Program-made: the position numbers and the translations under genes
Shown here: positions 1,866 to 17,829 of the stretch, in pieces
How the letters are laid out: every line of letters begins with the position of its first letter
Numbering within the stretch: position 1 is the stretch's first letter
From: a virus
Length of the DNA: 22,555 nucleotides
Virus record (IMG/VR): IMGVR_UViG_3300035162_003201
Location: 1-22,555 of that record
Direction: 5' to 3' (one strand)
The notes under the pieces: generated by a model
Seen by the model: the letters and a program-made list of their open reading frames with translations, nothing else
What the model was told of the DNA's origin: nothing
The model's database searches: none

Positions 1866-4800
1866 ATGGCGTGTCCCAATATAAATACTAAATACTTTAG
1901 AAATCTTAAAAAAGATTTTGGCTTTGATGATGCTTATAGAATTAACTATCGTACCAACAAACAAAAATTTGATAATTGGTATAAAGATGGTCAGCGTGAT
2001 AAATTTGGTAATCCTAGAATAAATGGAAATTACTTTATTAGTGGAAGTGGTCAAAAATTTTTAATAGCTAATGCTCTTAAAACTACTGAAGAAGAGCGTA
2101 ACTTATGGCAATTAGGAGCTAGGACTGAATGGAAGAATCCTGCTAATACTAAAACATCAGAATTATCTAAAGCACAATGGGTACATGTGCGTACTAAAGC
2201 TTTTAAAGAATGGTTTGGTGATTGGCAAAACTTTACTAATGAATCTATTAGTAAAGCAATAAACAAAGTTACTGGAGAACCTCAAGTATATTATCATCAA
2301 GGTAATAAAGTATATAGTTCTGAGAAAAGCAATACTCCTGTGTTTATTAAATCTGAAAAAGCAATAAAAGATAGAGTCATAGTAAAAGAAGATGAAAATA
2401 TTAAATCTGCCGTATCTAATAACGGAGAGTATACTGTAGGTATTAATGATATAAACAAAAGTAGATTAGAAGGTGGAGTAAAAGAAACTATTGACACTGT
2501 AGAAGATAAATCAGAACTACTTAAGAATAAGTTTGCTGCTATAGGAATAGATGTTACTGTAGTAGAAGATGATACTTTAGAGGAAAATGCTAATGTTAGA
2601 TTAGTAGACGGTAATCCAGTTATTACTATTAATCCTAATAAAGTATATGCTGATACTATACCTCATGAGTTCTCTCATCTTTACGTAGATTTACTAGGAT
2701 ATTCTCACCCATTAGTTAAAGCAGGTATTAAGCAATTAAAAGAGAGAAGTCCAAAATTATGGAATATTATACAAAAAAAATATGCTGAAGATAATCTTAC
2801 TCAAGAACAATTAGAAAAAGAACTTTTAGTAACTGCTATGGGCACTGAAGGAGCAGCATTAATGGAAGATAATCCTACAGGAATAGCGCCTTGGAAAGCA
2901 ACAGTAGCTAGAATATTTAGAGAAATAGGTAAAATATTAGGTATTAAACCTAATATAGCTAAACAATTATTTACTGATATAATGGCTAATGAGTTTCGTA
3001 TTAATGAGTTTAGGGGCCAATTAGAAAAAGGAGTACAAAAATCTAAATTAAATGATATAGCAGAAACTAGTTCTTATGTAACTTTAAATGACTCAGACCC
3101 TAAAAATACTTTTTATAAGAATACAAAAACTAATTCAATATTAAGCCGTCTTACAGATTTTATAAGTGGTGATAAAAGCCCATTTAGTTTTGTTAAAAAC
3201 GGTCAAGTAATAAATTATGAAAGAATTAGGGCTGAAAATGCTTTTTTAAGACATGGTAAAGATAAAAAAACAGAAACTGTAGAATATGTAATAGAAAATA
3301 AAAGAAAAATATTCACTTTTGATGAATTAGTAGCTTTTTATAAAATAAAAAATACAACTAGTACTGCTGCAGGCTCTGTAGCTCATGCTATGATTGAAAA
3401 ATTTATTAAAATATTTAATAATCAGCCTACTATGGATATAGATAAACGTATTAATGAGTTATCAAAAGAAAAGCCAGGTGAACAAGATAATATTCCAGAA
3501 TCATGGTTTTCTTGGTTAGATTCTCCTACATTAACTAAAATATTTGGTAGATTAGGAATAAATTCTTTTGACGAAAATATAGATCTAAATGATAGAGATA
3601 AAATACAAGCTGAAGTAATATTACATAGTGATTTATTAGGAATAGCTACAACTGCTGATACTATAGTAGAACATAATGATGGTTCTATATCTATGATTGA
3701 TTGGAAAGCAGGTAACCACTTTCTCACTGACTTTGCAGATACTTCACGTATCTTAAAATACTCAGGAAACAATTATATTAATATATACGATAATAAAGTA
3801 GGAAGAGCTCAATTAGAGCTTATGATGAGAGCTATGATTATTAAAGAACATCATCCTGATACTAAATTTAGAAACTTAACAGTAGCCCATTTACAAAAAA
3901 TTAAAGAAGTAGAAGGTTTTGAGGTTAATATAAATGATACTTTAAGTATACTAGAAAAATACTATAAAATAGAAAAACCTGATGTATACAAACAGCTAAA
4001 AGAAAAAGGAGTATTTAATGCACGTAGCTATGTAGGCATGGATATGGATATGAAATTTGATGCTGATATGGAAGGAAAGTCTAATTCAGATAAAATAGCA
4101 ATATATACTAATAGACTACAAGCATTAACAACTTCATATCCTAAAAATAAACATAATGATGATGAAATTGTAGATCTAACTAAAAAGATTTTAATATTAG
4201 AAAAAAATCCTGGAGATTCTCTTGATTTTTCTATGACAGGAGAGTCTGATATGGGATTTATTAAAAGATGGCTAGGAAGTAAAACTGCCGTCACTAATAA
4301 TATTGTACAAACATTTATTAAAAAAATTGTAGAACCTGCACAAAATAGAGCACAAGAAGAATTAGATAAGGCTAATAAAGAGCATAGAGACCTTCTTATT
4401 AAAGTAGCTGATGAATACTTTGAAAGAAAAGGTTTAGGTAAGAGGTCTGATAAATGGATGGCTGATAATTTTAAAAGTTTCTTTGTTAAGTACAATGATA
4501 TGTACAGCTTTATGTGGGAGTATATGGATACTCCAGGTAAAACTGGATGGTATGCACGTACGGATATGGATTCTTTAATTAAAGATAATAGAACTCCTGA
4601 AGGTCGTCAAATGACTGAGGCTGAAAAAGAATATTCTATATGGTACAGAGCAAAAATTGCTGAAATGTATGAAGAAACTATGTCTAGAATAGGCAATGCA
4701 GAAGGAGATCCTATATGGAAAATATTAAAGAAACCTGCAAAAGCGGACCCTAACTTTATGCCTAGAGTACCTATAACTATAGAAGAAGTAGCAGAAATTA

Positions 4801-6764
4801 GAACTTTAATAAAAAATGGAGCTGTTGTTAAAGAACAGCTTAGTGATAGAACTCGTAGAGTAACTAGTTCATATTGGGAATATATAAAAAGTAACAAATT
4901 AACTACATTTACTGAAGATCTTTATAGAGAAAACGAAGGTAATGCAGGACTACCTGTAAAGTATGTAGCTGATAGCAAAATTATAGAGTCTCAAAATCAT
5001 ACTATGAATACTGAAATCATATTTGAAAACTTTGCTTCTAATATGATAATGAAAAAAAACCTAGATCCTGCTTATGCTGTGGGACAAGGTGTTATAGGAT
5101 ATTTTAATTCTAGTCAACTATTAGATCCTGAATCTGGAGAAACAAAGTTTCCTATGATGACTAAATGGTTAGAAGATCAATTAAAAATACAATTACAAAC
5201 AATTAAAGGTAAAGAAGAATTTGCTCGTAAAGGAATTAAAATTCCTTCTGGAGGATGGAAAATAGAAAGAAATTCTAAAACTAAAACAGGATTGGCTATA
5301 GTACCTGTAAATCCAGGAAAGTTTAAAAAAATTAACATATTTGGTTTCATGAAAGGTATGAAATCTTTTGTTAGTGCTTCTACATTGTGGCTTAAACCTT
5401 ATGCAGGTGCTGCCAATGGTGCTTTAATAACTATTTTTAATGCTAAAGCTGCTATAAGAAATAGTATAGCATCTAGAATATGGGATGTAGATGATTCATC
5501 TATTGATTTTACTTTTACTGATTTAGTATTTGCTCATAAAGAAATGGGTAAACATTGGGCAAAGACTTTTGCTGGTGGAGCTGGAGGATTAGTAACAGGT
5601 GCTACTGCAGGGTTTTTTACAGCAGGTCCTTTAGGAGCTATAGCAGGTGCTGCAATCGGTGGTGCAGTAAGTGGGGCTATTGGGGCAATGACTTCTAATG
5701 ATGCTACATCAATAAATAAAGATAAATTAACTCTTCTTATGAAGAAATATAGATTTCTACCTGACAATTATGATTTTGCTGTAAATAACTCTGAACTTAT
5801 AACAGGTAAAAATAAACCTATAGATCAAGGACACATGTATTTATTTCATTCTATACCTGAAGAATATGGGCAACAAGTTCTTCTTATAGCTATGATGAAA
5901 AGAATGGGAGTATGGGATAAATATGACGTAAATAGCAAAGGAGAATTAGAATGGACAGGTGGAGTAAGATTTAAAAGAATTACTTCTGATGGAGAAGTTA
6001 TAGAAGTTAAAGGATTAACTCCTGAAGAAATTAATAGAATGAAATATGTTAGTGCTAGAATACATGGGGGATATCGTACTGAAGAAAAAACAGCTTTAGA
6101 GCTTAATGCTTTTGGGCAATGGGCTTTACAATTTAAAAAATATCTTCCTGCCATTATTATAGACTCTGCACAAGGAAAGTTTGAAGATATGTCTATAGGA
6201 AAATTTGCTAAAAGTTTAAAACAACAAGAAGGTCAAGATGTTTATGAATGGGTATCTACGGCTAACAGAGGTAGAATGGGAGCATTTGGGGCATGGTTGA
6301 TGGTAATAGCTGGAATGAGAGATGGTACTTATAAAGAGTATATGGAAACTTTATCTATAGAAGAGAAAAAACAAATTACTGATTTCTTTGTATCTATGGG
6401 ATCTTGGATTATGTTATTTCTCGCTATACCTATGGCATTTGATGATGATGATGATGAAATTTGGGGAATTAAAGCATCAAACGCTGCTAAAGATAGATAT
6501 GAAAAATTAGCTCAGGATATGACTCAAGGATGGAATCCTGCAGATTGGGGTAAAGCTCTTGAAAAACCTTTTCCAACAATACCTAAGTTCTATAATGTGG
6601 GTACAGGGCTTTTAGATATGTTTACTAAAGGGTTATTAAAAGGAGAAAGAGTTACAACTGGTAGATATAAAGGTAATATGCCAGGATCAGCTGCTGTTAG
6701 GCATAACTTACCTATTTTTGCTACTATGTGGGAAATAGAAAGATTTGCGGAAAGTAGAAATTAA
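1866..6764 (+). CDS. Giant polyvalent protein: ART-like motif, HExxH metallopeptidase, PD-(D/E)XK nuclease, hydrophobic C-terminal part
   Basis: This 1632-residue protein starts at ATG 1866, four bases after the previous stop. Residues 109-144 carry a WFGDW...GEPQVYYH segment resembling the start of ADP-ribosyltransferase domains in phage polyvalent proteins, but the usual YHGT is YHQG. Residues 267-271 are HEFSH, a zinc-metallopeptidase HExxH motif. Around 502-655 is a RecB-like PD-(D/E)XK fold: GSVAHAMIE near 502, D598, D612-W-K614, and QLELM near 650. Residues about 1235-1278 are a long Gly/Ala-rich hydrophobic stretch; about 1509-1526 is a second hydrophobic segment followed by five aspartates. 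Polyvalent proteins of this type are packaged in virions and ejected with DNA; the nuclease and peptidase could act on host defences. Domain calls are by motif only. The peptidase and nuclease calls are fairly secure; the ART call is weak. Confidence 0.85.
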   Translation: MACPNINTKYFRNLKKDFGFDDAYRINYRTNKQKFDNWYKDGQRDKFGNPRINGNYFISGSGQKFLIANALKTTEEERNLWQLGARTEWKNPANTKTSELSKAQWVHVRTKAFKEWFGDWQNFTNESISKAINKVTGEPQVYYHQGNKVYSSEKSNTPVFIKSEKAIKDRVIVKEDENIKSAVSNNGEYTVGINDINKSRLEGGVKETIDTVEDKSELLKNKFAAIGIDVTVVEDDTLEENANVRLVDGNPVITINPNKVYADTIPHEFSHLYVDLLGYSHPLVKAGIKQLKERSPKLWNIIQKKYAEDNLTQEQLEKELLVTAMGTEGAALMEDNPTGIAPWKATVARIFREIGKILGIKPNIAKQLFTDIMANEFRINEFRGQLEKGVQKSKLNDIAETSSYVTLNDSDPKNTFYKNTKTNSILSRLTDFISGDKSPFSFVKNGQVINYERIRAENAFLRHGKDKKTETVEYVIENKRKIFTFDELVAFYKIKNTTSTAAGSVAHAMIEKFIKIFNNQPTMDIDKRINELSKEKPGEQDNIPESWFSWLDSPTLTKIFGRLGINSFDENIDLNDRDKIQAEVILHSDLLGIATTADTIVEHNDGSISMIDWKAGNHFLTDFADTSRILKYSGNNYINIYDNKVGRAQLELMMRAMIIKEHHPDTKFRNLTVAHLQKIKEVEGFEVNINDTLSILEKYYKIEKPDVYKQLKEKGVFNARSYVGMDMDMKFDADMEGKSNSDKIAIYTNRLQALTTSYPKNKHNDDEIVDLTKKILILEKNPGDSLDFSMTGESDMGFIKRWLGSKTAVTNNIVQTFIKKIVEPAQNRAQEELDKANKEHRDLLIKVADEYFERKGLGKRSDKWMADNFKSFFVKYNDMYSFMWEYMDTPGKTGWYARTDMDSLIKDNRTPEGRQMTEAEKEYSIWYRAKIAEMYEETMSRIGNAEGDPIWKILKKPAKADPNFMPRVPITIEEVAEIRTLIKNGAVVKEQLSDRTRRVTSSYWEYIKSNKLTTFTEDLYRENEGNAGLPVKYVADSKIIESQNHTMNTEIIFENFASNMIMKKNLDPAYAVGQGVIGYFNSSQLLDPESGETKFPMMTKWLEDQLKIQLQTIKGKEEFARKGIKIPSGGWKIERNSKTKTGLAIVPVNPGKFKKINIFGFMKGMKSFVSASTLWLKPYAGAANGALITIFNAKAAIRNSIASRIWDVDDSSIDFTFTDLVFAHKEMGKHWAKTFAGGAGGLVTGATAGFFTAGPLGAIAGAAIGGAVSGAIGAMTSNDATSINKDKLTLLMKKYRFLPDNYDFAVNNSELITGKNKPIDQGHMYLFHSIPEEYGQQVLLIAMMKRMGVWDKYDVNSKGELEWTGGVRFKRITSDGEVIEVKGLTPEEINRMKYVSARIHGGYRTEEKTALELNAFGQWALQFKKYLPAIIIDSAQGKFEDMSIGKFAKSLKQQEGQDVYEWVSTANRGRMGAFGAWLMVIAGMRDGTYKEYMETLSIEEKKQITDFFVSMGSWIMLFLAIPMAFDDDDDEIWGIKASNAAKDRYEKLAQDMTQGWNPADWGKALEKPFPTIPKFYNVGTGLLDMFTKGLLKGERVTTGRYKGNMPGSAAVRHNLPIFATMWEIERFAESRN

Positions 6765-8215: not shown

Positions 8216-8249
8216 GAGCTTATTATTCTATTTATATGAGCTTATTATT
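8214..8249. repeat. 14-bp tandem direct repeat spanning two gene ends
   Basis: ATGAGCTTATTATT occurs at 8214-8227 and again at 8236-8249, a 22-base period. On the coding (minus) strand one copy holds the last codons of the secreted 332-residue protein and the other the start codon of the small exported protein. It looks like a small local duplication. Confidence 0.75.
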
Positions 8250-9226
8250 ATTCCATTATAATTACGGTCAACAATTTGACCTAATATATTATAGTATATA
8301 ACTTTTTTTACTTCTTCTATTTCTACTTCTTTATTGCAAACTGCAGTATAAAATACTTCATTATTACCATCAAAATCAACTTGCTTTAAACGGTAATAAT
8401 TAATTTTAGCATAAGGAAAGTAATGCATAAAAGAGTATTCTAAAGTTTCATTAGAATTACCTGCTGCTTGTACTGTTTGTAGATTATCCCAATTAAATGC
8501 ATCTGTTGAATGCTCTATAATAAAATAATCATTATCAACTTCTGTAGCTGTTGACCAACTTATTAAAATATTATTATCTATTATATTACAATCAAAACTA
8601 ATAAGTTCTATTGGCAGTGTTAGTGTGCCCTTAATAGTAAGTTGAGGTATATCATAATAATAAACTAAAATTTGTCTAGGACTTCCTCCAACATATGTAT
8701 TAGAAATGTCAACAGGAGTCTGAAATGGTCCACCTTGGTTATACCTCCATGAATTTAAATTAGAACGATACCATATAATAAATGGAGGGTCTGTTACAAG
8801 TCTGAATCTAAATTGTGTAGCTGTATTTGGTATTGTTGTCCTAACAATAGTAGTTGTTTGTACTCCTGTAAGTACTGTATCAGTTACCCAAGCTCCACTA
8901 TTAAAATAATCAAAATACATATAATCCCAATTATTTTCAATAATACCGCTTATAGGGAAATTAATAGTAGCATTCCCATTTATAGTAGTTAAATCATGTA
9001 CTGGACTTGTTGCCGTAATAGTAGATGAATTTAAGTAAGGAGATGAGCCAAGATTAAATGATAAGTAGTTTTCAGCACCACCGTAGTTTTGCGTACCACC
9101 ACCATTGTTAATGGTCCATTCCCCTACTCCTCCAAAGGAGTTAAATTCTTCTATTATTAAATACTGTCCATTAACTATTACAGATAAAAATATAAATAAA
9201 AAAAATATAAAAACATTATTCTTCAT
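8228..9226 (-). CDS. Secreted jelly-roll-like protein with T9SS-type C-terminal region
   Basis: I start it at ATG 9226 (MKNNVFIFFLFIFLSVIVNGQ), an ideal signal peptide with an NG-Q cleavage site; an ATG three codons upstream is possible. The product has 332 residues. After the signal comes a beta-rich region (EEFNSFGGVGEWTINNGGG...) of jelly-roll character. Next is a block typical of Bacteroidota secreted proteins: LPIELISFDC, WSTATEVDNDYFIIEHS, GNSNETLEYSF, YYRLKQVDFDG. The end, YYNILGQIVDRNYNGIIISSY, resembles the type IX secretion sorting domain ('iYNilGq...GiviiY') but stops a few residues short. These domains send proteins to the host cell surface. It overlaps the upstream gene by 11 bases. 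A phage-borne host-like surface protein suggests acquisition from the host and a role in altering the infected cell's surface; that part is inference. Confidence 0.75.
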   Translation of the reverse strand: MKNNVFIFFLFIFLSVIVNGQYLIIEEFNSFGGVGEWTINNGGGTQNYGGAENYLSFNLGSSPYLNSSTITATSPVHDLTTINGNATINFPISGIIENNWDYMYFDYFNSGAWVTDTVLTGVQTTTIVRTTIPNTATQFRFRLVTDPPFIIWYRSNLNSWRYNQGGPFQTPVDISNTYVGGSPRQILVYYYDIPQLTIKGTLTLPIELISFDCNIIDNNILISWSTATEVDNDYFIIEHSTDAFNWDNLQTVQAAGNSNETLEYSFMHYFPYAKINYYRLKQVDFDGNNEVFYTAVCNKEVEIEEVKKVIYYNILGQIVDRNYNGIIISSYK

Positions 9227-9407
9227 AAGGCCCAATTATATATACTTCTACGTTACCAATTACATTATCGTTACTGTAACGATAATTATCGTTACTGTCT
9301 ACAATATTAACCCATTTAGAAGTTAATGCATCTTTTTGTTCTTTAGTTAACTGAAGATCTTCCACCCCATAGGTGTATAATTTTTCCTTTTTCTTAATTG
9401 TTCCCAT
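9216..9407 (-). CDS. Small protein of unknown function containing an internal repeat
   Basis: 63 residues if started at ATG 9407, which overlaps the upstream gene by 61 bases. A GTG at 9365 would give 49 residues (starting at VEDLQLTKEQKDALTSKW) and only a 19-base overlap, and may be the better start. The middle reads DSNDNYRYSNDN, where a 14-base direct repeat and a palindrome sit in the DNA. The end, VIGNVEVYIIGPYEE, looks like beta strands. No family is recognised. It overlaps the secreted-protein gene downstream by 11 bases. Confidence 0.55.
   Translation of the reverse strand: MGTIKKKEKLYTYGVEDLQLTKEQKDALTSKWVNIVDSNDNYRYSNDNVIGNVEVYIIGPYEE
9264..9298. repeat. Direct repeat with interleaved palindromes
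   Basis: ATTATCGTTACTGT occurs at 9264-9277 and 9285-9298 (21-base period, exactly seven codons). Bases 9277-9294 (TAACGATAATTATCGTTA) are a perfect 18-base palindrome. Bases 9264-9273 and 9277-9286 form a 10-base inverted repeat around CTG. The element lies inside a small gene and encodes the SNDN-YRY-SNDN repeat. Either the codon repeat produces it by chance, or it is a protein-binding site or RNA hairpin. Confidence 0.8.
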
Positions 9408-11432: not shown

Positions 11433-11864
11433 TTAATATTTAGGAGACCATTCTTCAGTAGATGTTAAATCTTCTGTAGACTCCAATATTTCATGCTCTT
11501 TATGTTCGTTAATGTTCGTTAATGTTTCAGGAGAAGCTACTTTCGCAGCCAATTCTTTATCTAAATCTGTATTAGCTAATTCAGATTCTGCAACATGATC
11601 TACTTCACAAACATCTTCAGCTTGTTCATGTTCTTCTTCAGTATCATCAATTAATACAAAAGATACAGCTTTAGTAGAAATAGTTTTTCTACCTTTAAGT
11701 TTATCATGCTTAAATAAAGAGAATATCTCACTTTTTTTAAGATTGTATTTTTCTTGAATACTTTTACCTTCTCCTTGGTAATGTTTGTCATCTTTTGTTC
11801 TAGTATATCCTTCTTGTAAGTCATTAAGGATTCCAGAAATTGTAATTGTAATTGGTTCTTGCAT
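11433..11864 (-). CDS. Basic/acidic two-part protein at the end of the ubiquitin-like cluster
   Basis: 143 residues. The first 70 are basic and look folded: MQEPITITISGILNDLQEGY, then a possible helix-turn-helix (SIQEKYNLKKSEIFSLFKHDKLKGRKT). The rest, from DDTEEEHEQ on, is strongly acidic and probably disordered, ending EEWSPKY. This layout suits a nucleic-acid-binding protein or a flexible adaptor. It starts two bases after the stop of the 303-residue gene and ends at a strong terminator, so it closes the ubiquitin-like unit. Whether it belongs to that pathway (for example as target or adaptor) or to replication cannot be told. No family firmly recognised. Confidence 0.75.
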   Translation of the reverse strand: MQEPITITISGILNDLQEGYTRTKDDKHYQGEGKSIQEKYNLKKSEIFSLFKHDKLKGRKTISTKAVSFVLIDDTEEEHEQAEDVCEVDHVAESELANTDLDKELAAKVASPETLTNINEHKEHEILESTEDLTSTEEWSPKY

Positions 11865-11866
11865 TT

Positions 11867-12778
11867 TTAATTGAGATTATTAAGGTACGTAAAATCGTCA
11901 CCTTCGTTAGTAATAAATTGATTATATAAATTAGACATACATTCCTTATATTCTTTAGGATTATTAGTCTTTGGCATAGTGTAATGATTAAATAAAGATA
12001 AAAAATCTTTCTTAGTCACATCAATAATAGGCATACCTGCGTCAGCACATACAGCTTTTATTTGTTTTCTATATCTAGGTCTGATGTTTTTAAATTCAGT
12101 ATGTGGAATATCAAAATCATCTCTTACCCATAATTGAAGTAATCTAGTATCTATAGGCTCATCTAATATAAAAGAAGCTCTTATAATAGGCATATACTTA
12201 GGTTTAGTTACTATAGCAACTAAAATTTCCATATTACCATTTTCTTTATTCCAACTAGATAATAAATATGGAGAAACAGCATAAGATAATGGATAAGATC
12301 TAGACCTAAACGTAACTTGATTGTTCATCTCTCCTTTCCAAAAATGATCAAACAAATCATCATAATAAGAAGTATCTCCCCAATTATTAGAATGCTCTAT
12401 TATTTTATAATAAAAAGGATCTTTAATATATTTATCAAAATTCTTTTTAACAATATCTAAAGCATCATAATAGTTTTTACTATCTTTAATTATAAGAGAA
12501 TTCCATCTTGAAGCATTTATAATTTGTCTACACATGCTTATTACAGCTTTTTTTACAGGAAAAGAAAGAGATTCATAATGCTTAGCAATATCTTTATATT
12601 TAGGATCAAAACTTATAGCACTAATATTATTATTATCATAAGAAGGCCTATTTATAGCCGTTAAGGGAACAAAGTTCTTCTTATAAGAACCTATATTAAG
12701 ACAATTTTCGTTAACTACAGTTCCTCTACGATAATGTCTCAGGTTTCTATTTTGAATATAAAATTTATTATCTGTCAT
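11867..12778 (-). CDS. Unknown protein translationally coupled to the E1-like enzyme
   Basis: 303 residues. Its ATG overlaps the TGA of the E1-like gene (ATGA), a sign of coupled translation and often of physical partnership. The N-terminus is basic (IQNRNLRHYRRG), the middle is helical and aromatic-rich (SNNWGDTSYYDDLFDHFWKG), and the C-terminal third has HYTMPKTNN and a four-residue acidic stretch. Two cysteines, C86 region (SMCRQI) and AVCADAG near 246, are not in a recognisable context. It has no signal peptide and no motif I know. By position it could be a target-recruiting or accessory factor of the conjugation system. That is inference from gene order only. Confidence 0.75.
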   Translation of the reverse strand: MTDNKFYIQNRNLRHYRRGTVVNENCLNIGSYKKNFVPLTAINRPSYDNNNISAISFDPKYKDIAKHYESLSFPVKKAVISMCRQIINASRWNSLIIKDSKNYYDALDIVKKNFDKYIKDPFYYKIIEHSNNWGDTSYYDDLFDHFWKGEMNNQVTFRSRSYPLSYAVSPYLLSSWNKENGNMEILVAIVTKPKYMPIIRASFILDEPIDTRLLQLWVRDDFDIPHTEFKNIRPRYRKQIKAVCADAGMPIIDVTKKDFLSLFNHYTMPKTNNPKEYKECMSNLYNQFITNEGDDFTYLNNLN

Positions 12779-13455
12779 AATATCACATCTTGAGTTAAAG
12801 TAGGTAATTCAATAGTAGTTTTAAAAGGTACTTCCCTAAATGCGTGCTCTGATATACTGTTAGCTATATAGTTATTAAATGTTGCAACCATATAACCAGC
12901 AGTAATAGCACCACAATGGGATGTAGCTTTCATTGAACAAGGTTGATCTTGGACTTCTGAGTCTTCAAACAATTCTTCTTCATACTTATCTTCATTATCT
13001 TTAGTAACAGATATTATCTGAGCACTCTCAGCTAACATTCTACCATCAATAAAGATTTTTCTATCTTCACATTCCTTCCAACGATTAAACATAGTTTTTC
13101 TAGCAGTCATATTATCAAAAGCAGAAAACATTATAGGCATAGAAAAAGAATCTTTTTCATACCTACCCATACATGTAATACTATTATCACAATATCCTGA
13201 TGATATTGTATTCATAGCAGTTGCTTTATTAACACCTATAAATGATTTAGCATATAATTGACCACCTAAATTAGTTTCATCTATCATATCATCATCATAA
13301 AGATATATATCACATTCTTGCCTTGCTAAGAAGAAAGTTAACCAACTTCCTATACCACCAGCTCCTCCAATTAAAGTTTCTACTCCTGGAGAAAACCAAC
13401 TAGCATCAGAAAATCTGACACTAGTAGGTCTACTTTTTATATCTATAGTTTCCAT
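12775..13455 (-). CDS. E1-like / ThiF-family activating enzyme
   Basis: 226 residues with a clear ThiF/E1 adenylation domain. The glycine loop GGAGGIGSW is at 30-38; YLYDDDMID..NLGGQLY (51-68) matches the ThiF 'D-D-D...N-L..Q' ATP and magnesium segment. FDNMTARK (113-120) matches the 'DN..aR' motif, and IDGRM is at 136-140. C173 and C181 in QPCSMKATSHCG are candidates for the catalytic or zinc cysteines. E1 enzymes adenylate the C-terminus of a ubiquitin-like protein and pass it to cysteine. The protein lacks a C-terminal ubiquitin-fold domain and is a minimal E1. Its ATG overlaps the stop of the JAMM gene (TAATG), and its stop overlaps the start of the 303-residue gene. Confidence 0.87.
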   Translation of the reverse strand: METIDIKSRPTSVRFSDASWFSPGVETLIGGAGGIGSWLTFFLARQECDIYLYDDDMIDETNLGGQLYAKSFIGVNKATAMNTISSGYCDNSITCMGRYEKDSFSMPIMFSAFDNMTARKTMFNRWKECEDRKIFIDGRMLAESAQIISVTKDNEDKYEEELFEDSEVQDQPCSMKATSHCGAITAGYMVATFNNYIANSISEHAFREVPFKTTIELPTLTQDVIL

Positions 13456-14648
13456 TATAATGCTCCAAAAGAATTATTATAACTTTTATAATCCATAGTT
13501 TCTTCTATAGCATCTTCTTGCAATCCTGAAATAAATTCATATAATAAATATTCATTCATACTATTACAATTTCCTAACCATCCTAAAGCTTGTCCAAATA
13601 AAGCACATGCTTTATTAGGATCTTCTAACATAGGTACATATAAAAGATCACCATACATTATATTAATGAAGTATTCTTCCACTTTTTCCATAGTTAATTT
13701 ATTTATATGTTTAGAATAAGCAAAAGCTCCATTCTCTGACATAGATAAAGAAGAGTCTAATTTATAAGTACCTAAACTAATAAGGTCAATCATAAATCTT
13801 ACCATCATCTCTTCAGGAATAGCTTCTATACCTTCAGCATCATTAATACCATCTTGTAAAGTAAGCTGCACATTATTTTTCAAAGGAGAAATATTATGTT
13901 GTTTACGAAACCCCATTGGATTAGATGACTTGTCCCATTGTAAAAGATCATCTCCCCATCCATATTTATTAGTATTATATACTGATTTAGATTTAATTTC
14001 CTTCTTCTTTTGAATTTTATTAATCTCACCTAATATAGTAATGTCCTCCATTGAGTTTTTCTTAGGCATAGCAATATCAAGATCAATAGCATATACTACA
14101 TCCTCTTCTTTATCTACTTTATTATTGTTACAAAGATGAGAAGATAGTTTTATACCTTTAACAGATACAGAACTAGTTCCCCTAACTTCTCTAGTACCCA
14201 TAAAACACAATCTTGCACAATAAGATTTATCAAAGTTTACAATAAGAGATAGATAATAAGCATGATTAGGAGTATTATCCTGTAATTCACTATTATCTGT
14301 ACCACTAAAGTAAGCTTTCATATTATGATGAGTATGAATATGACCTAGTCTCCATTGTTCAGAAAGAGCATTAGGGTACATATCATACATATCCATAATA
14401 TTCTCATCAAATTCATATTCTGTATAAGCACTAGATCCTATATCCATAGGAAATAATCCTTTAACATCTACATCTACATTACTATCAACGTCCCCATTAA
14501 CAGTATATAATAATACTCCAGACCATTCTTTAGGTCCCACAACTGTGTGTAATAAATCTATTTGTTCTTCTATTTGCTTACTTATATTAAGTGTACCTCT
14601 AGTATTAGATATAATAATAGGGTGATCTGTTTTTTTCTTATTTTCCAT
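13455..14648 (-). CDS. JAMM/JAB-domain isopeptidase
   Basis: 397 residues. The N-terminal half carries the complete JAMM zinc-protease signature. E41 lies in GPKEWSGVLLY (compare E..G.L.G), and H105-T-H107, seven residues, S115-G-T-D118 form the canonical HxH-x7-SxxD. JAMM proteins of the Rpn11/AMSH fold remove ubiquitin-like modifiers or process their C-termini. Residues from about 190 on form a second helical domain I do not recognise, perhaps for target binding. Placement between an E2-like candidate and an E1-like gene, with an 11-base overlap upstream and a TAATG overlap downstream, supports a role in a ubiquitin-like cycle rather than in tail assembly. Confidence 0.87.
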   Translation of the reverse strand: MENKKKTDHPIIISNTRGTLNISKQIEEQIDLLHTVVGPKEWSGVLLYTVNGDVDSNVDVDVKGLFPMDIGSSAYTEYEFDENIMDMYDMYPNALSEQWRLGHIHTHHNMKAYFSGTDNSELQDNTPNHAYYLSLIVNFDKSYCARLCFMGTREVRGTSSVSVKGIKLSSHLCNNNKVDKEEDVVYAIDLDIAMPKKNSMEDITILGEINKIQKKKEIKSKSVYNTNKYGWGDDLLQWDKSSNPMGFRKQHNISPLKNNVQLTLQDGINDAEGIEAIPEEMMVRFMIDLISLGTYKLDSSLSMSENGAFAYSKHINKLTMEKVEEYFINIMYGDLLYVPMLEDPNKACALFGQALGWLGNCNSMNEYLLYEFISGLQEDAIEETMDYKSYNNSFGAL

Positions 14649-15627
14649 AATTTTTTATAAAATATAAATTTATTCTATTAGTTAATACTCTAGTCACATA
14701 TTCTGCTACTCTAGATTTAGTTCTCATTATTAAATTATTATCATCTTCTGCTTTTAATCCATCATTATTAATTATTTTAATTATATTTTTTCCTCTAAAT
14801 TTTAATTTAAATATGTTTTGATAGTTATCATTAAGTGTTTTAATAAGACCTAACATAACTTTAGCACTACTATTAGGAGGAACTTCTATTCCAGAAGGTG
14901 TGGTATAAGTCATAGGACCTATTTCATTAGCTGTTAAAATATCTATAACAGTATTGTTTTCAAAAATAAACCTAAGAGAATTATTATCCCATTTACAAGG
15001 TATTTCTATTTTATCAACAATAACTTTTCTAAAAGCTAACTGCATTTCTGACCTACTAATATGTGAAGAATTGCTTACTCTTATTTCAGCCATTCTTTTA
15101 TAAGGACCTCCATCAAGAGATTCCCATCTTACATAAGCATCTAGTTGATATAAAAATAATTCAAATAATATTTGATCAAAATTATCTTCTCTAGTAGCCC
15201 AATCAGCTTTTAAATCAGCCATTTCAGATGTTCCTAAACAAAATGGTTGAAAGTTATCAGTAGAACTAGAAGGTAAATGAGAATGAGAATAACCACTAGA
15301 ATGTTCTTCAAATGTCATTTTTCCTCTATACCCATCTAATCCTAATAATTTAACATGAGAATCAACAATTATATATTTTATTCTAACATATAAATCTTTT
15401 ATAATATGTTTATTATCCTTTTTATTAGATATTTCTATCTCAGGAAATTTTATATAAACTATATAATGGTTCAATAATTCATCGTCTAATTCATTTTGCA
15501 TATCCCAATTACCAGGATAAATAGCTTCTAAAGATTCCCACATTTTTTTAATAGTAGAATTACTTGATGCTAAAGATCCACAAGGGATATAAGAATTAGT
15601 TTTTTGTTCTATTAATATTTCTTCCAT
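14638..15627 (-). CDS. Candidate E2-like (UBC-fold) protein of the ubiquitin-like cluster
   Basis: 329 residues; I do not recognise the family from sequence alone. What suggests an E2-like fold is the run of strands at about 53-98 (NHYIVYIKFPEIEIS, LYVRIKYIIVDSHVKLLGL). A GYSHSHLPSS...FCLGT segment follows, with H115, H117 and C130. In E2 enzymes a conserved HPN precedes the active cysteine by several residues in a similar 'H...G.iCL' layout. A conserved-looking helix-rich part follows (LFLYQLDAYVRWESLDGGPYKRM, about 157-179), then a C-terminal domain with IPCKW and TPSGIEVPPNSS. Its neighbours are the ubiquitin-like gene and the JAMM gene, whose start it overlaps by 11 bases. The E2 assignment rests on order plus this motif and is tentative. 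Confidence 0.6.
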   Translation of the reverse strand: MEEILIEQKTNSYIPCGSLASSNSTIKKMWESLEAIYPGNWDMQNELDDELLNHYIVYIKFPEIEISNKKDNKHIIKDLYVRIKYIIVDSHVKLLGLDGYRGKMTFEEHSSGYSHSHLPSSSTDNFQPFCLGTSEMADLKADWATREDNFDQILFELFLYQLDAYVRWESLDGGPYKRMAEIRVSNSSHISRSEMQLAFRKVIVDKIEIPCKWDNNSLRFIFENNTVIDILTANEIGPMTYTTPSGIEVPPNSSAKVMLGLIKTLNDNYQNIFKLKFRGKNIIKIINNDGLKAEDDNNLIMRTKSRVAEYVTRVLTNRINLYFIKNYGK

Positions 15628-15637
15628 AATTTAAATA

Positions 15638-15660
15638 AAGGGGAGCACAAGGCCCCCCTT
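15638..15660 (-). terminator. Hairpin terminator after the ubiquitin-like gene
   Basis: The minus strand reads AAGGGG, an 11-base loop, then CCCCTT and TATTTAAATT. The T tract is imperfect, so it may be leaky. It lies five bases after the stop of the ubiquitin-like gene and 11 before the next start, so it can cut expression of the conjugation enzymes relative to the modifier. Confidence 0.7.
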
Positions 15661-15664
15661 ATTA

Positions 15665-16123
15665 TTACATTCCTAATTCTTCTTCAAGTTCTCTTGCTTG
15701 TGCAGCTAATGCATCCGTATTAACAGAGATTCTACCCTCGTCTATATCTTGGATAACACCATTAAATGCAGCATCAAACTTTTCTTTAAGAGAGTATAAT
15801 AAATCTCTAACAGATACATCTGGAGTTAAATTTTGCATTACTTTTTCAGCACCTTCAGCACCTTTAGCACTTGCTTTAGCTTTTGTACCACTAGAAATAC
15901 CTGATTTAACTTTAGTAGGATAAAGAAATACTGTTGCATCTCCTTGTGGAAGTTGTGCACCATCACTTTCTAAAGTTGTTCTATTTTCTCTAACTACAGC
16001 TTTCATACCTGATGTGTTAACATCTGTAGCTAAATCTTTTACTTCTCCCCAAGTATTAACATCTGTTGTTATTACTTGAGATTCATTGGTTTGTGTTGAA
16101 AAAATTGTTACTTTTCTTGACAT
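15665..16123 (-). CDS. Ubiquitin-like beta-grasp protein with C-terminal extension
   Basis: 152 residues. Residues 3-70 follow the ubiquitin/ThiS beta-grasp plan. Strand KVTIFST and strand ESQVITTD are followed by helix TWGEVKDLATDV. Strands KAVVREN and TTLESDGAQLP and the closing strand DATVFLYP come after. After the fold comes KVKSGISSGTKAKASAKGAEGAEK, a flexible linker, then a helical acidic C-terminal part (100-152) ending EEELGM. There is no terminal diglycine, so either it is trimmed by the JAMM peptidase near the SG-rich linker, or it is attached differently. It starts five bases after the previous gene and is followed by its own terminator, implying high output. Downstream E2-like, JAMM and E1-like genes make it the likely modifier of that pathway. 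Confidence 0.75.
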   Translation of the reverse strand: MSRKVTIFSTQTNESQVITTDVNTWGEVKDLATDVNTSGMKAVVRENRTTLESDGAQLPQGDATVFLYPTKVKSGISSGTKAKASAKGAEGAEKVMQNLTPDVSVRDLLYSLKEKFDAAFNGVIQDIDEGRISVNTDALAAQARELEEELGM

Positions 16124-16424: not shown

Positions 16425-16853
16425 CTATCTGATTTTGATGTGGACTCCTGGATTGTCTTTGTCATAACTATACCAATCACCTTTCTTTTTAAAAGGCATT
16501 GGTATAAAATAATCCATATTATCATCTTCTATATAACCATGGGCAACCATAAGGTCAGCAATGATTTGTACAGCATTATGAAAGTCAAATTTATGTTTGC
16601 TATTTCTTACAAAGTGAAATTCTATTACATTAGGCACAGACTTATCAAGCTTGTCAAAGAACTGCTTGTACTGTGCAAATTTATTTTCTCTTGTTTTATA
16701 GCCAACTACTTCTTGCCTAGATGCAGAGTATTTTTGAACACCCATTTCTCTAAGATATCTCATAACTGTTTTAGATGGAAATATACCTCTCCTAGTCTTA
16801 ATTTTACTATTCTTTAAGGAAGGTACATTACCGTTGATAAATATACTAGACAT
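16425..16853 (-). CDS. RusA-like Holliday junction endonuclease
   Basis: 142 residues, normal for RusA. The N-terminus FINGNVPSLKNSK matches the family's 'p.P.k.n' opening. The acid cluster region is FDFHNAVQIIADLM (89-102) and GYIEDDNMDYF (106-116), corresponding to RusA's D.DN...D and ..DD. D90, D100 and D110/D111 are present. Where RusA has its second aspartate (DxDN) this protein has His (H92), so metal binding may differ. RusA resolves four-way junctions during recombination and phage DNA maturation. Its start overlaps the primase stop by eight bases, placing it in the replication and recombination operon. Confidence 0.8.
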   Translation of the reverse strand: MSSIFINGNVPSLKNSKIKTRRGIFPSKTVMRYLREMGVQKYSASRQEVVGYKTRENKFAQYKQFFDKLDKSVPNVIEFHFVRNSKHKFDFHNAVQIIADLMVAHGYIEDDNMDYFIPMPFKKKGDWYSYDKDNPGVHIKIR

Positions 16854-17829
16854 AATTAATTAGATTCTTTATAAGCAAATCTAATTTATTTTCTCCATTT
16901 TTCTTATAAAAATCCGAAGGATCTTTTTCCATACATATTGGATTATTAATAGTTTTTAATTTATACTTCATACTATGTTCTCTAGATGCTTTAAGTCCGG
17001 GGATATCATTATCATAATAAATGACAACTTTATCCCAAGACTGTTTTAGTTCATTGATAGTATCAGATGGTATAGCCGTATTCTCAGATTGTGGTGCTAC
17101 TGCTGAATAACCCATTGACCTTAAAGTCATAATGTCTTTAAGTGATTTAGTTATAAATAGTAACTCACCAATCTTCGGTATCTGATTTAATCCTTGAACT
17201 ATAGAGGCATCACAATTAGTTATCCACTTCCAATCTGGATTTTGTGGACGAAGTATTTTGTATCTATAATCTCCAAAATAATATGCAAAAGCATGTTCCT
17301 TTTTAGGAACTGTTATATAAGTACTGTTTATGTAATAATGAGAAATCTCTTTTACGCAATATTCTTGCAAGAGCTCTTTGGTTATTCCAAAGTTATTCCA
17401 ATAAGCAAGACCTGCATTGCTAAAAGATTTAGATACTATTCTAATCTCTGTAGCTATTGGTCTTGGTTGCTTAGTGATATGAACTCCTTCATAACCCATT
17501 GTTTTGTTAATAACTTCTCCAGTATGTAATCCAAGATTAAAATCATTGGAAATTACTTTTAAAGCCTCATAGAAATTAAGATTAAACTTCTTTTGCACAT
17601 AAGAGAATGCATTGTAGGTTTCCCCACTAGCAAAATCTCTATATATTGTGTACCCAGAAGGTAATAGCTTAATACTACAAGATGGATGTACATCCTTTCG
17701 TAGTTCTGAACAAAACTTTTTACTAGGGCTCTTGAAGTCCTTTATATAATATCTAAAGATATCATATTCAGTAACTTTACTAAGAATATTATTCTTATTC
17801 AGTTCTTCATATCCTCTAGTCTCATACAT
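16846..17829 (-). CDS. DnaG-type primase with variant Toprim domain
   Basis: 327 residues. The N-terminal part resembles the CHC2-type domain (FKSPSKKFCSELRKDVHPSC, then YRDFASGETYNAFSYV) but keeps only two cysteines, C40 and C51, so zinc binding is probably lost. The C-terminal half is a Toprim domain: LLFITKSLKDIMTL (223-236), APQSENTAI (245-253), VVIYYDNDIPGLKA (268-281). The DxD of motif II (D273, D275) and the following P-G are intact. In motif I the usual TEG..D reads TKSLKD (227-232), replacing the catalytic Glu with Lys. I recall this variant in Bacteroidota phage primases, which would suggest it is functional. The primase makes RNA primers with the DnaB-like helicase encoded upstream. 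Confidence 0.85.
   Translation of the reverse strand: MYETRGYEELNKNNILSKVTEYDIFRYYIKDFKSPSKKFCSELRKDVHPSCSIKLLPSGYTIYRDFASGETYNAFSYVQKKFNLNFYEALKVISNDFNLGLHTGEVINKTMGYEGVHITKQPRPIATEIRIVSKSFSNAGLAYWNNFGITKELLQEYCVKEISHYYINSTYITVPKKEHAFAYYFGDYRYKILRPQNPDWKWITNCDASIVQGLNQIPKIGELLFITKSLKDIMTLRSMGYSAVAPQSENTAIPSDTINELKQSWDKVVIYYDNDIPGLKASREHSMKYKLKTINNPICMEKDPSDFYKKNGENKLDLLIKNLINYV

Follow-up and report, generated by a model that had tools for sequence, protein, structure and literature searches.

We describe here a gene cassette that quite probably encodes a phage-borne ubiquitin-like conjugation pathway. It lies on the minus strand of IMG/VR record IMGVR_UViG_3300035162_003201, which was analysed over all of its 22,555 bases and is called the window below. 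The window covers part of a crAss-like phage genome, and its DnaB, primase, RusA, Sak4-like, uracil-DNA glycosylase (UDG) and PD-(D/E)XK genes match or resemble the crAss-like replication block (Steigviridae, Flavobacterium Fpv1 group). The cassette consists of genes for a ubiquitin-like protein (Ubl), an E2-like protein, a JAMM/JAB metalloprotease and a ThiF/E1 adenylating enzyme, usually followed by a fifth, fast-evolving gene (Table 1). That a phage itself might carry such a cassette had been suggested in a first-pass annotation of the sequence. This suggestion has stood up well, as the two folds that it claimed are predicted and the genes co-occur in related phages.

Folds and conserved residues of the four proteins

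The AlphaFold2 model of the Ubl is a beta-grasp, with a predicted local distance difference test score (pLDDT) of about 95 across most of residues 1-70, followed by a disordered stretch and two helices in the tail. The alignments used for structure prediction were built from the window and the IMG/VR loci only. Foldseek and VIA-align matches of the model are beta-grasp proteins, including ubiquitin, NEDD8, SUMO, ISG15 and UBX, in agreement with the fold that had been read from the sequence, and residues 1-75 superpose on residues -1 to 76 of ubiquitin. At the position where ubiquitin ends, a glycine (Gly75) is invariant in 80 of 80 Ubls. It is preceded by serine or alanine and, before that, usually by lysine, while the residue that follows it is variable.

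What comes after Gly75 differs widely in length. Exactly one further residue (A, K, E, F, Y, H, I or R) is found in 18 of the 80 Ubls, seven end 3-5 residues past the glycine, and the rest carry tails of 24 to about 250 residues. The one-residue tail is found in 12 of the 55 Ubls of a 70% non-redundant set. On the E1 tree there are about eight switches between short and long tails, at least three of which are forced by well-supported branches. Some crAss-like phages recode TAG or TGA (PMC10136315), and recoded stop codons were considered as a cause of the short Ubls and rejected: the stop codon is TAA in 24 of the 25 short Ubl genes and TGA in the other (17 and one among the 18 genes with a one-residue tail).

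This combination of a fixed glycine, a blocking residue or tail after it and a JAMM gene in one operon is typical of a precursor Ubl and points to maturation by the JAMM protease; exposure of the glycine would require this trimming. The archaeal protease CsRpn11 has been shown by experiment to cleave its ubiquitin precursor, CsUb, after the C-terminal Gly-Gly (PMC6043591), and one C-terminal glycine suffices for Cap2-type conjugation (PMC10097602). What is new here is a Ubl with an invariant Gly75 at ubiquitin's end and, beyond it, a variable tail whose removal is predicted. Because K-S-G precedes the predicted cut, trypsin should leave a Ser-Gly remnant (+144.05 Da) on modified lysines.

The 329-residue protein had been put forward as a candidate E2, with its fold named beforehand as a point on which the proposal could fail. 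The predicted fold is that of an E2: the model (pLDDT 89.8, predicted template modelling score 0.85) has the order alpha-beta-beta-beta-beta-(HSH..C)-alpha-alpha, its top nine Foldseek matches are E2, UEV or RWD proteins (E 0.03-0.16), and all but about three of 50 VIA rows are UBC or UEV chains (Z 5-6). The candidate catalytic Cys130 is present in 83 of 83 homologues, as are H117 and G132, and S116 is found in 82 of 83. Since single structural matches are weak, the assignment rests on the fold topology, the consistent list of matches and the invariant H-S-H...C-x-G motif taken together. Sequence-profile searches of the PDB yielded nothing useful with the E2 and Ubl alignments, and with the JAMM alignment only weak matches to CSN5.

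The protease has the complete JAMM/MPN+ arrangement E ... HxH ... S xx D that had been recognised at first pass, and its residues are conserved (E41, S115 and D118 in 85 of 85 homologues, H105 and H107 in 85 of 86). It matches Pfam Prok-JAB at 5.9e-4 and 20.1 bits, under the Pfam cut-off of 25, and the NCBIfam family PRTRC_A at E 0.007 and 16 bits. In Flavobacterium phage Fpv1 (locus L004, 6707-8999) a candidate group I intron interrupts the JAMM gene just ahead of the codons for the catalytic HSH. It matches RF00028 with 43.4 bits (E 2.3e-9; gathering score 50) and contains an open reading frame (ORF) in inverted orientation. The gene is likewise split in locus L027.

The E1 enzyme matches Pfam ThiF (1.4e-10) and its nearest solved structures are UBA5/MccB (about 4e-11). 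The nucleotide-binding glycine loop claimed for it, GxGGIGS, is present and conserved in homologues, and R14, G31, G33, D56, N62, Q66, K77, D114, R139 and C173, the last a candidate catalytic cysteine, are found in 86 of 86. An NxxGQ motif with an invariant IDGR, which holds R139, appears to make up a phage-type E1 active site. The E1 of crAss001, gp76 (locus L005, 8542-9690), is extended at its N-terminus by about 130-150 residues that are absent from the window protein.

Several points weigh against a conjugation pathway. The structural matches of the E2-like protein are individually weak, as judged by the Foldseek E-values and VIA Z-scores, though nearly all of the top rows are UBC folds, and the classical HPN motif upstream of the UBC cysteine is replaced by HSH. 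In 83 of 86 E1 proteins the usual ATP-site arginine of NxxRQ is a glycine, whereas the three PRTRC E1 proteins examined retain it; going by its conservation, R139 may stand in for the missing arginine. Cys173 was assigned from its position in the sequence, not from structure, and the cut site in the Ubl tail was placed from conservation alone. The cassette has no recognisable E3.

Gene layout, distribution and the primase-UDG slot

All six ORFs listed at first pass were found on the minus strand at the positions given for them. The genes had been described as consecutive, with overlapping stops and starts. This is correct for E2/JAMM (11 nucleotides), JAMM/E1 (1 nucleotide) and E1 and the next gene (4 nucleotides), but the Ubl and E2 genes are separated by 37 nucleotides. 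The placement in a replication operon also needed some correction: replication genes do surround the cassette, which forms an operon between the Toprim primase/RusA gene and a PD-(D/E)XK exonuclease. The upstream flank matches DNA primase phrog_12622 (9.7e-41) and RusA-like proteins (3.6e-12).

Table 1. Positions of the cassette genes, their parts and neighbouring features (window coordinates, except for the last row, which is given by locus)
Feature	Position	Strand	Basis or remark
Ubl, whole gene	15665-16123	-	75-residue domain and 77-residue tail plus stop
Ubl beta-grasp domain after maturation (residues 1-75); last residues ...PTKVKSG, Gly75 invariant	15899..16123	-	AlphaFold2 model, alignment
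C-terminal tail of the Ubl (77 residues and the stop codon); removal by JAMM predicted	15665..15898	-	tail variability among homologues
E2-like (UBC-fold) protein, 329 residues; candidate catalytic Cys130 (codon 15238-15240); HSH motif H115-H117	14638..15627	-	model, PDB matches, conservation
JAMM/JAB metalloprotease, 397 residues; predicted Ubl maturase and deconjugase	13455..14648	-	Prok-JAB, PRTRC_A, motif
ThiF/E1 adenylating enzyme, 226 residues; candidate catalytic Cys173	12775..13455	-	ThiF match, conserved residues
Fast-evolving fifth protein, 303 residues, after E1	11867..12778	-	position in loci
143-residue ORF, outside the cassette	11433..11864	-	homologues placed elsewhere
Primase (Toprim) and RusA genes flanking the slot on its left	16425..17829	-	PHROG/RusA matches
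Slots with amidoligase modules or rIIA/rIIB in place of the cassette	L096 18260-23904, L097 16105-20261, L098 14318-21107		

A search of viral contigs with an E1 profile gave 401 relatives, of which the best 80 were fetched, and genes in the loci were detected with iterated hidden Markov models. All 80 loci in which a Ubl could be detected, the window and annotated relatives among them, have the order Ubl-E2-JAMM-E1, and this constancy shows that the grouping is not due to chance. The co-occurrence in related phages, on which the first-pass annotation had staked its own proposal, therefore held. In the remaining six loci, mostly close to contig or locus ends, E1 is kept with whichever of E2 and JAMM is detectable. 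A primase is found upstream of the Ubl in 74 of 79 loci. The same order is found in the cultured phage crAss001 (gp79-gp76), cr111_1, bajarodcaudo, Dulem 41 and Fpv1.

Among 50,697 phage records there were 78 E1 matches, nearly all from Flavobacterium Fpv-type and crAss-like phages, plus three Xanthomonas records and one from Erwinia. A search for a cellular source in 84,980 bacterial and archaeal genomes returned one match only, a 3.7-kb contig of a metagenome-assembled genome that is probably phage; the family is nearly restricted to phages. The crAss-like phages that carry it come from the gut and from the environment. The homologues are catalogued but nameless, as the Ubl, E2-like, JAMM and E1 proteins each match PHROG families of unknown function. 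In annotated relatives the labels are 'thiamine biosynthesis protein', 'ThiF family protein', 'E1 enzyme family protein' and 'metalloprotease domain containing protein'. We found no prior description of the cassette in the literature, in a search whose scope left out preprints and most subscription papers.

Two further proteins had been counted as components, and one of them can be retained. The 303-residue protein follows E1 in about 70 of 86 loci, with a mean column identity of 9%; it has no PDB or Pfam match and is a possible substrate adaptor or E3. The 143-residue ORF was rejected: it belongs to a phage family, and in other phages its homologues are mostly encoded 1.5-3 kb upstream of the cassette.

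In crAss001, cr111_1, cr106_1, cr128_1, bajarodcaudo and Dulem 41 the cassette sits between primase and UDG. In other genomes this slot has a different content: an ATP-grasp protein, a COOH.NH2 ligase, a GATase and an amidoligase-like protein in phi14:2, an ATP-grasp protein, a COOH.NH2 ligase and amidotransferases in cr108_1, and rIIA and rIIB in cr116_1. Whole-record searches of these three phages found no E1, E2 or JAMM. As the three enzymes are absent together and the slot is refilled, the cassette appears to be gained and lost as one unit and swapped with other modules, although three genomes make this a suggestive pattern rather than a statistic. Two of the three replacement modules are built on ATP-dependent amide-bond enzymes; these share the slot and the type of chemistry with the cassette, but the enzymes are unrelated and there is no Ubl among them. 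The pattern suggests an exchangeable site for host-takeover or counter-defence modules. Since the cassette is swapped in this slot with amidoligases and rIIAB, modification of host or phage proteins, or counter-defence, is favoured over a core role in replication.

Two other proteins of the window are worth recording. The product of a 335-residue ORF at 8228-9235, in the middle of the replication strand, has a signal-like N-terminus, the look of a Bacteroidota surface protein and no Pfam or PHROG match. A 1632-residue protein at 1866-6764 has a metalloprotease-like HEFSH motif and no Pfam match.

Known systems and competing explanations

A close parallel for a tail-blocked Ubl with separate enzymes is the archaeal ubiquitin operon of Caldiarchaeum subterraneum (CsUb, CsRpn11, E1, E2 and RING), in which a ubiquitin precursor has a JAMM-cut extension and E1 and E2 are likewise separate (PMC6043591). 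The phage cassette differs in that its Ubl ends in one glycine (SG/AG), its E1 is short, no RING gene was recognised and the system is phage-encoded.

Could the cassette instead serve to disarm host systems of a similar kind? In the Bil antiphage system, bacterial E1, E2 and JAB proteins act on a C-terminal glycine. Type II CBASS does so too, with Cap2 and Cap3, and hosts deploy Ubl conjugation against phages (PMC10097602). The JAMM protease might strip host conjugates of CBASS or Bil while the Ubl, E1 and E2 act as decoys that occupy host enzymes, and the presence of rIIA/rIIB in the same slot of cr116_1 agrees with a counter-defence role. We consider this unlikely as the whole explanation: there would be no need for a decoy to keep the E1 and E2 active sites fully conserved or to have a trimmed Ubl of its own, and the all-or-none retention of the genes suggests a working pathway. 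Counter-defence may still be the benefit of a conjugation pathway. The cassette itself is not a type II CBASS system. In Cap2 the E2 and E1 parts are joined in one protein, which acts on a cGAS-like enzyme, whereas the phage genes are separate and the tag is a beta-grasp protein; the 226-residue E1 has no E2 part and there is no CD-NTase among the annotated neighbours. PADLOC 2023 gave general JAB and E1-E2 matches only, which are weak, those to E1-E2 being confined to the E1 part.

A second explanation, which we find improbable, is that the Ubl is a sulfur carrier like ThiS or MoaD for phage biosynthesis or for thiolation of nucleotides or tRNA, and that the JAMM protease only trims it. The E1 is indeed a member of the ThiF superfamily and carries a thiamine biosynthesis annotation, but an E2-fold protein with an invariant cysteine is always present, and there is no sulfurtransferase, rhodanese, thiamine or molybdopterin gene among the annotated neighbours.

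The first-pass annotation had also compared the cassette with the PRTRC group, and here a similarity of kind stands while membership fails. The PRTRC operon (PRTRC A, B, C and ThiF; row 6d of Iyer 2006) also has separate Ubl, E2-fold, JAB and E1 genes, and the E1 profile matches PRTRC ThiF with a probability of 98.8%, a clear kinship for E1 alone, with a weak one for JAMM. It is nevertheless very improbable that the cassette was captured from a plasmid or conjugative element with its plasmid function kept. Both proteins fall far under the NCBIfam cut-offs (E1 35.3 of 144.75 bits for PRTRC_ThiF, JAMM 16 of 101.8 bits for PRTRC_A), and the E2 and Ubl profiles align to PRTRC B and C with hhalign probabilities of 0.4% and 0.1%, the PRTRC alignments being of three sequences each. 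No cassette protein has an NCBIfam match to a PRTRC B-type E2 or C-type Ubl. The phage E2 is of another subfamily, with HSH upstream and no downstream histidine, the Ubl is longer with a predicted removable tail, and the E1 has NxxGQ rather than NxxRQ. There are no ParB, PRTRC E or PRTRC F genes beside the cassette, whose neighbours are phage replication genes. Membership was rejected on the cut-offs and the mismatch of the E2 and Ubl profiles.

Least credible of all is a role for the Ubl and JAMM protease in virion assembly, as tail proteins I and K of lambda may have: phage-encoded Ubl and JAB pairs are known from lambda-like tail operons (PMC1779556), but those have no E1 or E2, whereas the cassette has both, lies in a replication block with no tail genes nearby, and has a JAMM protein with a Pfam match to Prok-JAB only and no NlpC/P60 domain, so that this role was rejected on the locus.

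A possible second Ubl cassette was seen in the jumbo phages Xanthomonas PhiXhv-12 (locus L088, 4766-9518) and Erwinia Ep032 (locus L089), where it was recognised by motif and position only. Their E1 is related to the cassette E1 (1e-33), an 893-residue protein has an E2-like HPHM...SLCLG motif and cysteine-rich ends, and a 140-residue candidate Ubl ends in Gly-Gly (...KASGG). No JAMM was found in PhiXhv-12, and no relatives of the 893-residue protein were found in viral contigs.

A proposed pathway and its meaning

For the conjugation pathway that we favour, we infer the following catalytic steps. The Ubl would be made as a blocked precursor and cleaved after Gly75 by the JAMM protease. E1 would then adenylate Gly75 with ATP and form a thioester with the Ubl, Cys173 being the most likely site, before handing it to Cys130 of the E2-fold protein and from there to an amino group of the target, most likely a lysine. 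The fifth protein may select this target, and the JAMM protease may also be able to remove the attached Ubl. By analogy with crAss001, in which the replication genes are middle genes (PMC10136315), the cassette is probably expressed as middle genes. The proteins tagged would be those of the host or the phage, most likely after the onset of replication, and tagging may aid takeover of the cell or defeat host defence.

A wider claim can be made, for and against which we find the balance about even. It holds that lytic crAss-like phages, including cultured human gut phages, run a complete Ubl pathway in which a tail-blocked precursor comes to tag host proteins during infection; that the slot, filled by peptide-ligase or rIIAB modules in relatives, marks interchangeable protein-modifying takeover systems; and that jumbo Xanthomonas and Erwinia phages may carry a second, JAMM-free version with a candidate Ubl already ending in Gly-Gly.

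The reading of the cassette as a conjugation pathway offers an explanation for genes that are now labelled as thiamine biosynthesis or metalloprotease genes. It also supplies a specific mass signature, and a slot in which other protein-modifying modules of phages may be found. If the pathway is real, crAss001 (gp79-gp76) and Fpv1 provide a cultured, testable model. What is known of bacterial Ubl conjugation mostly concerns defence against phages; if abundant gut phages carry a full pathway of their own, these roles would be reversed.

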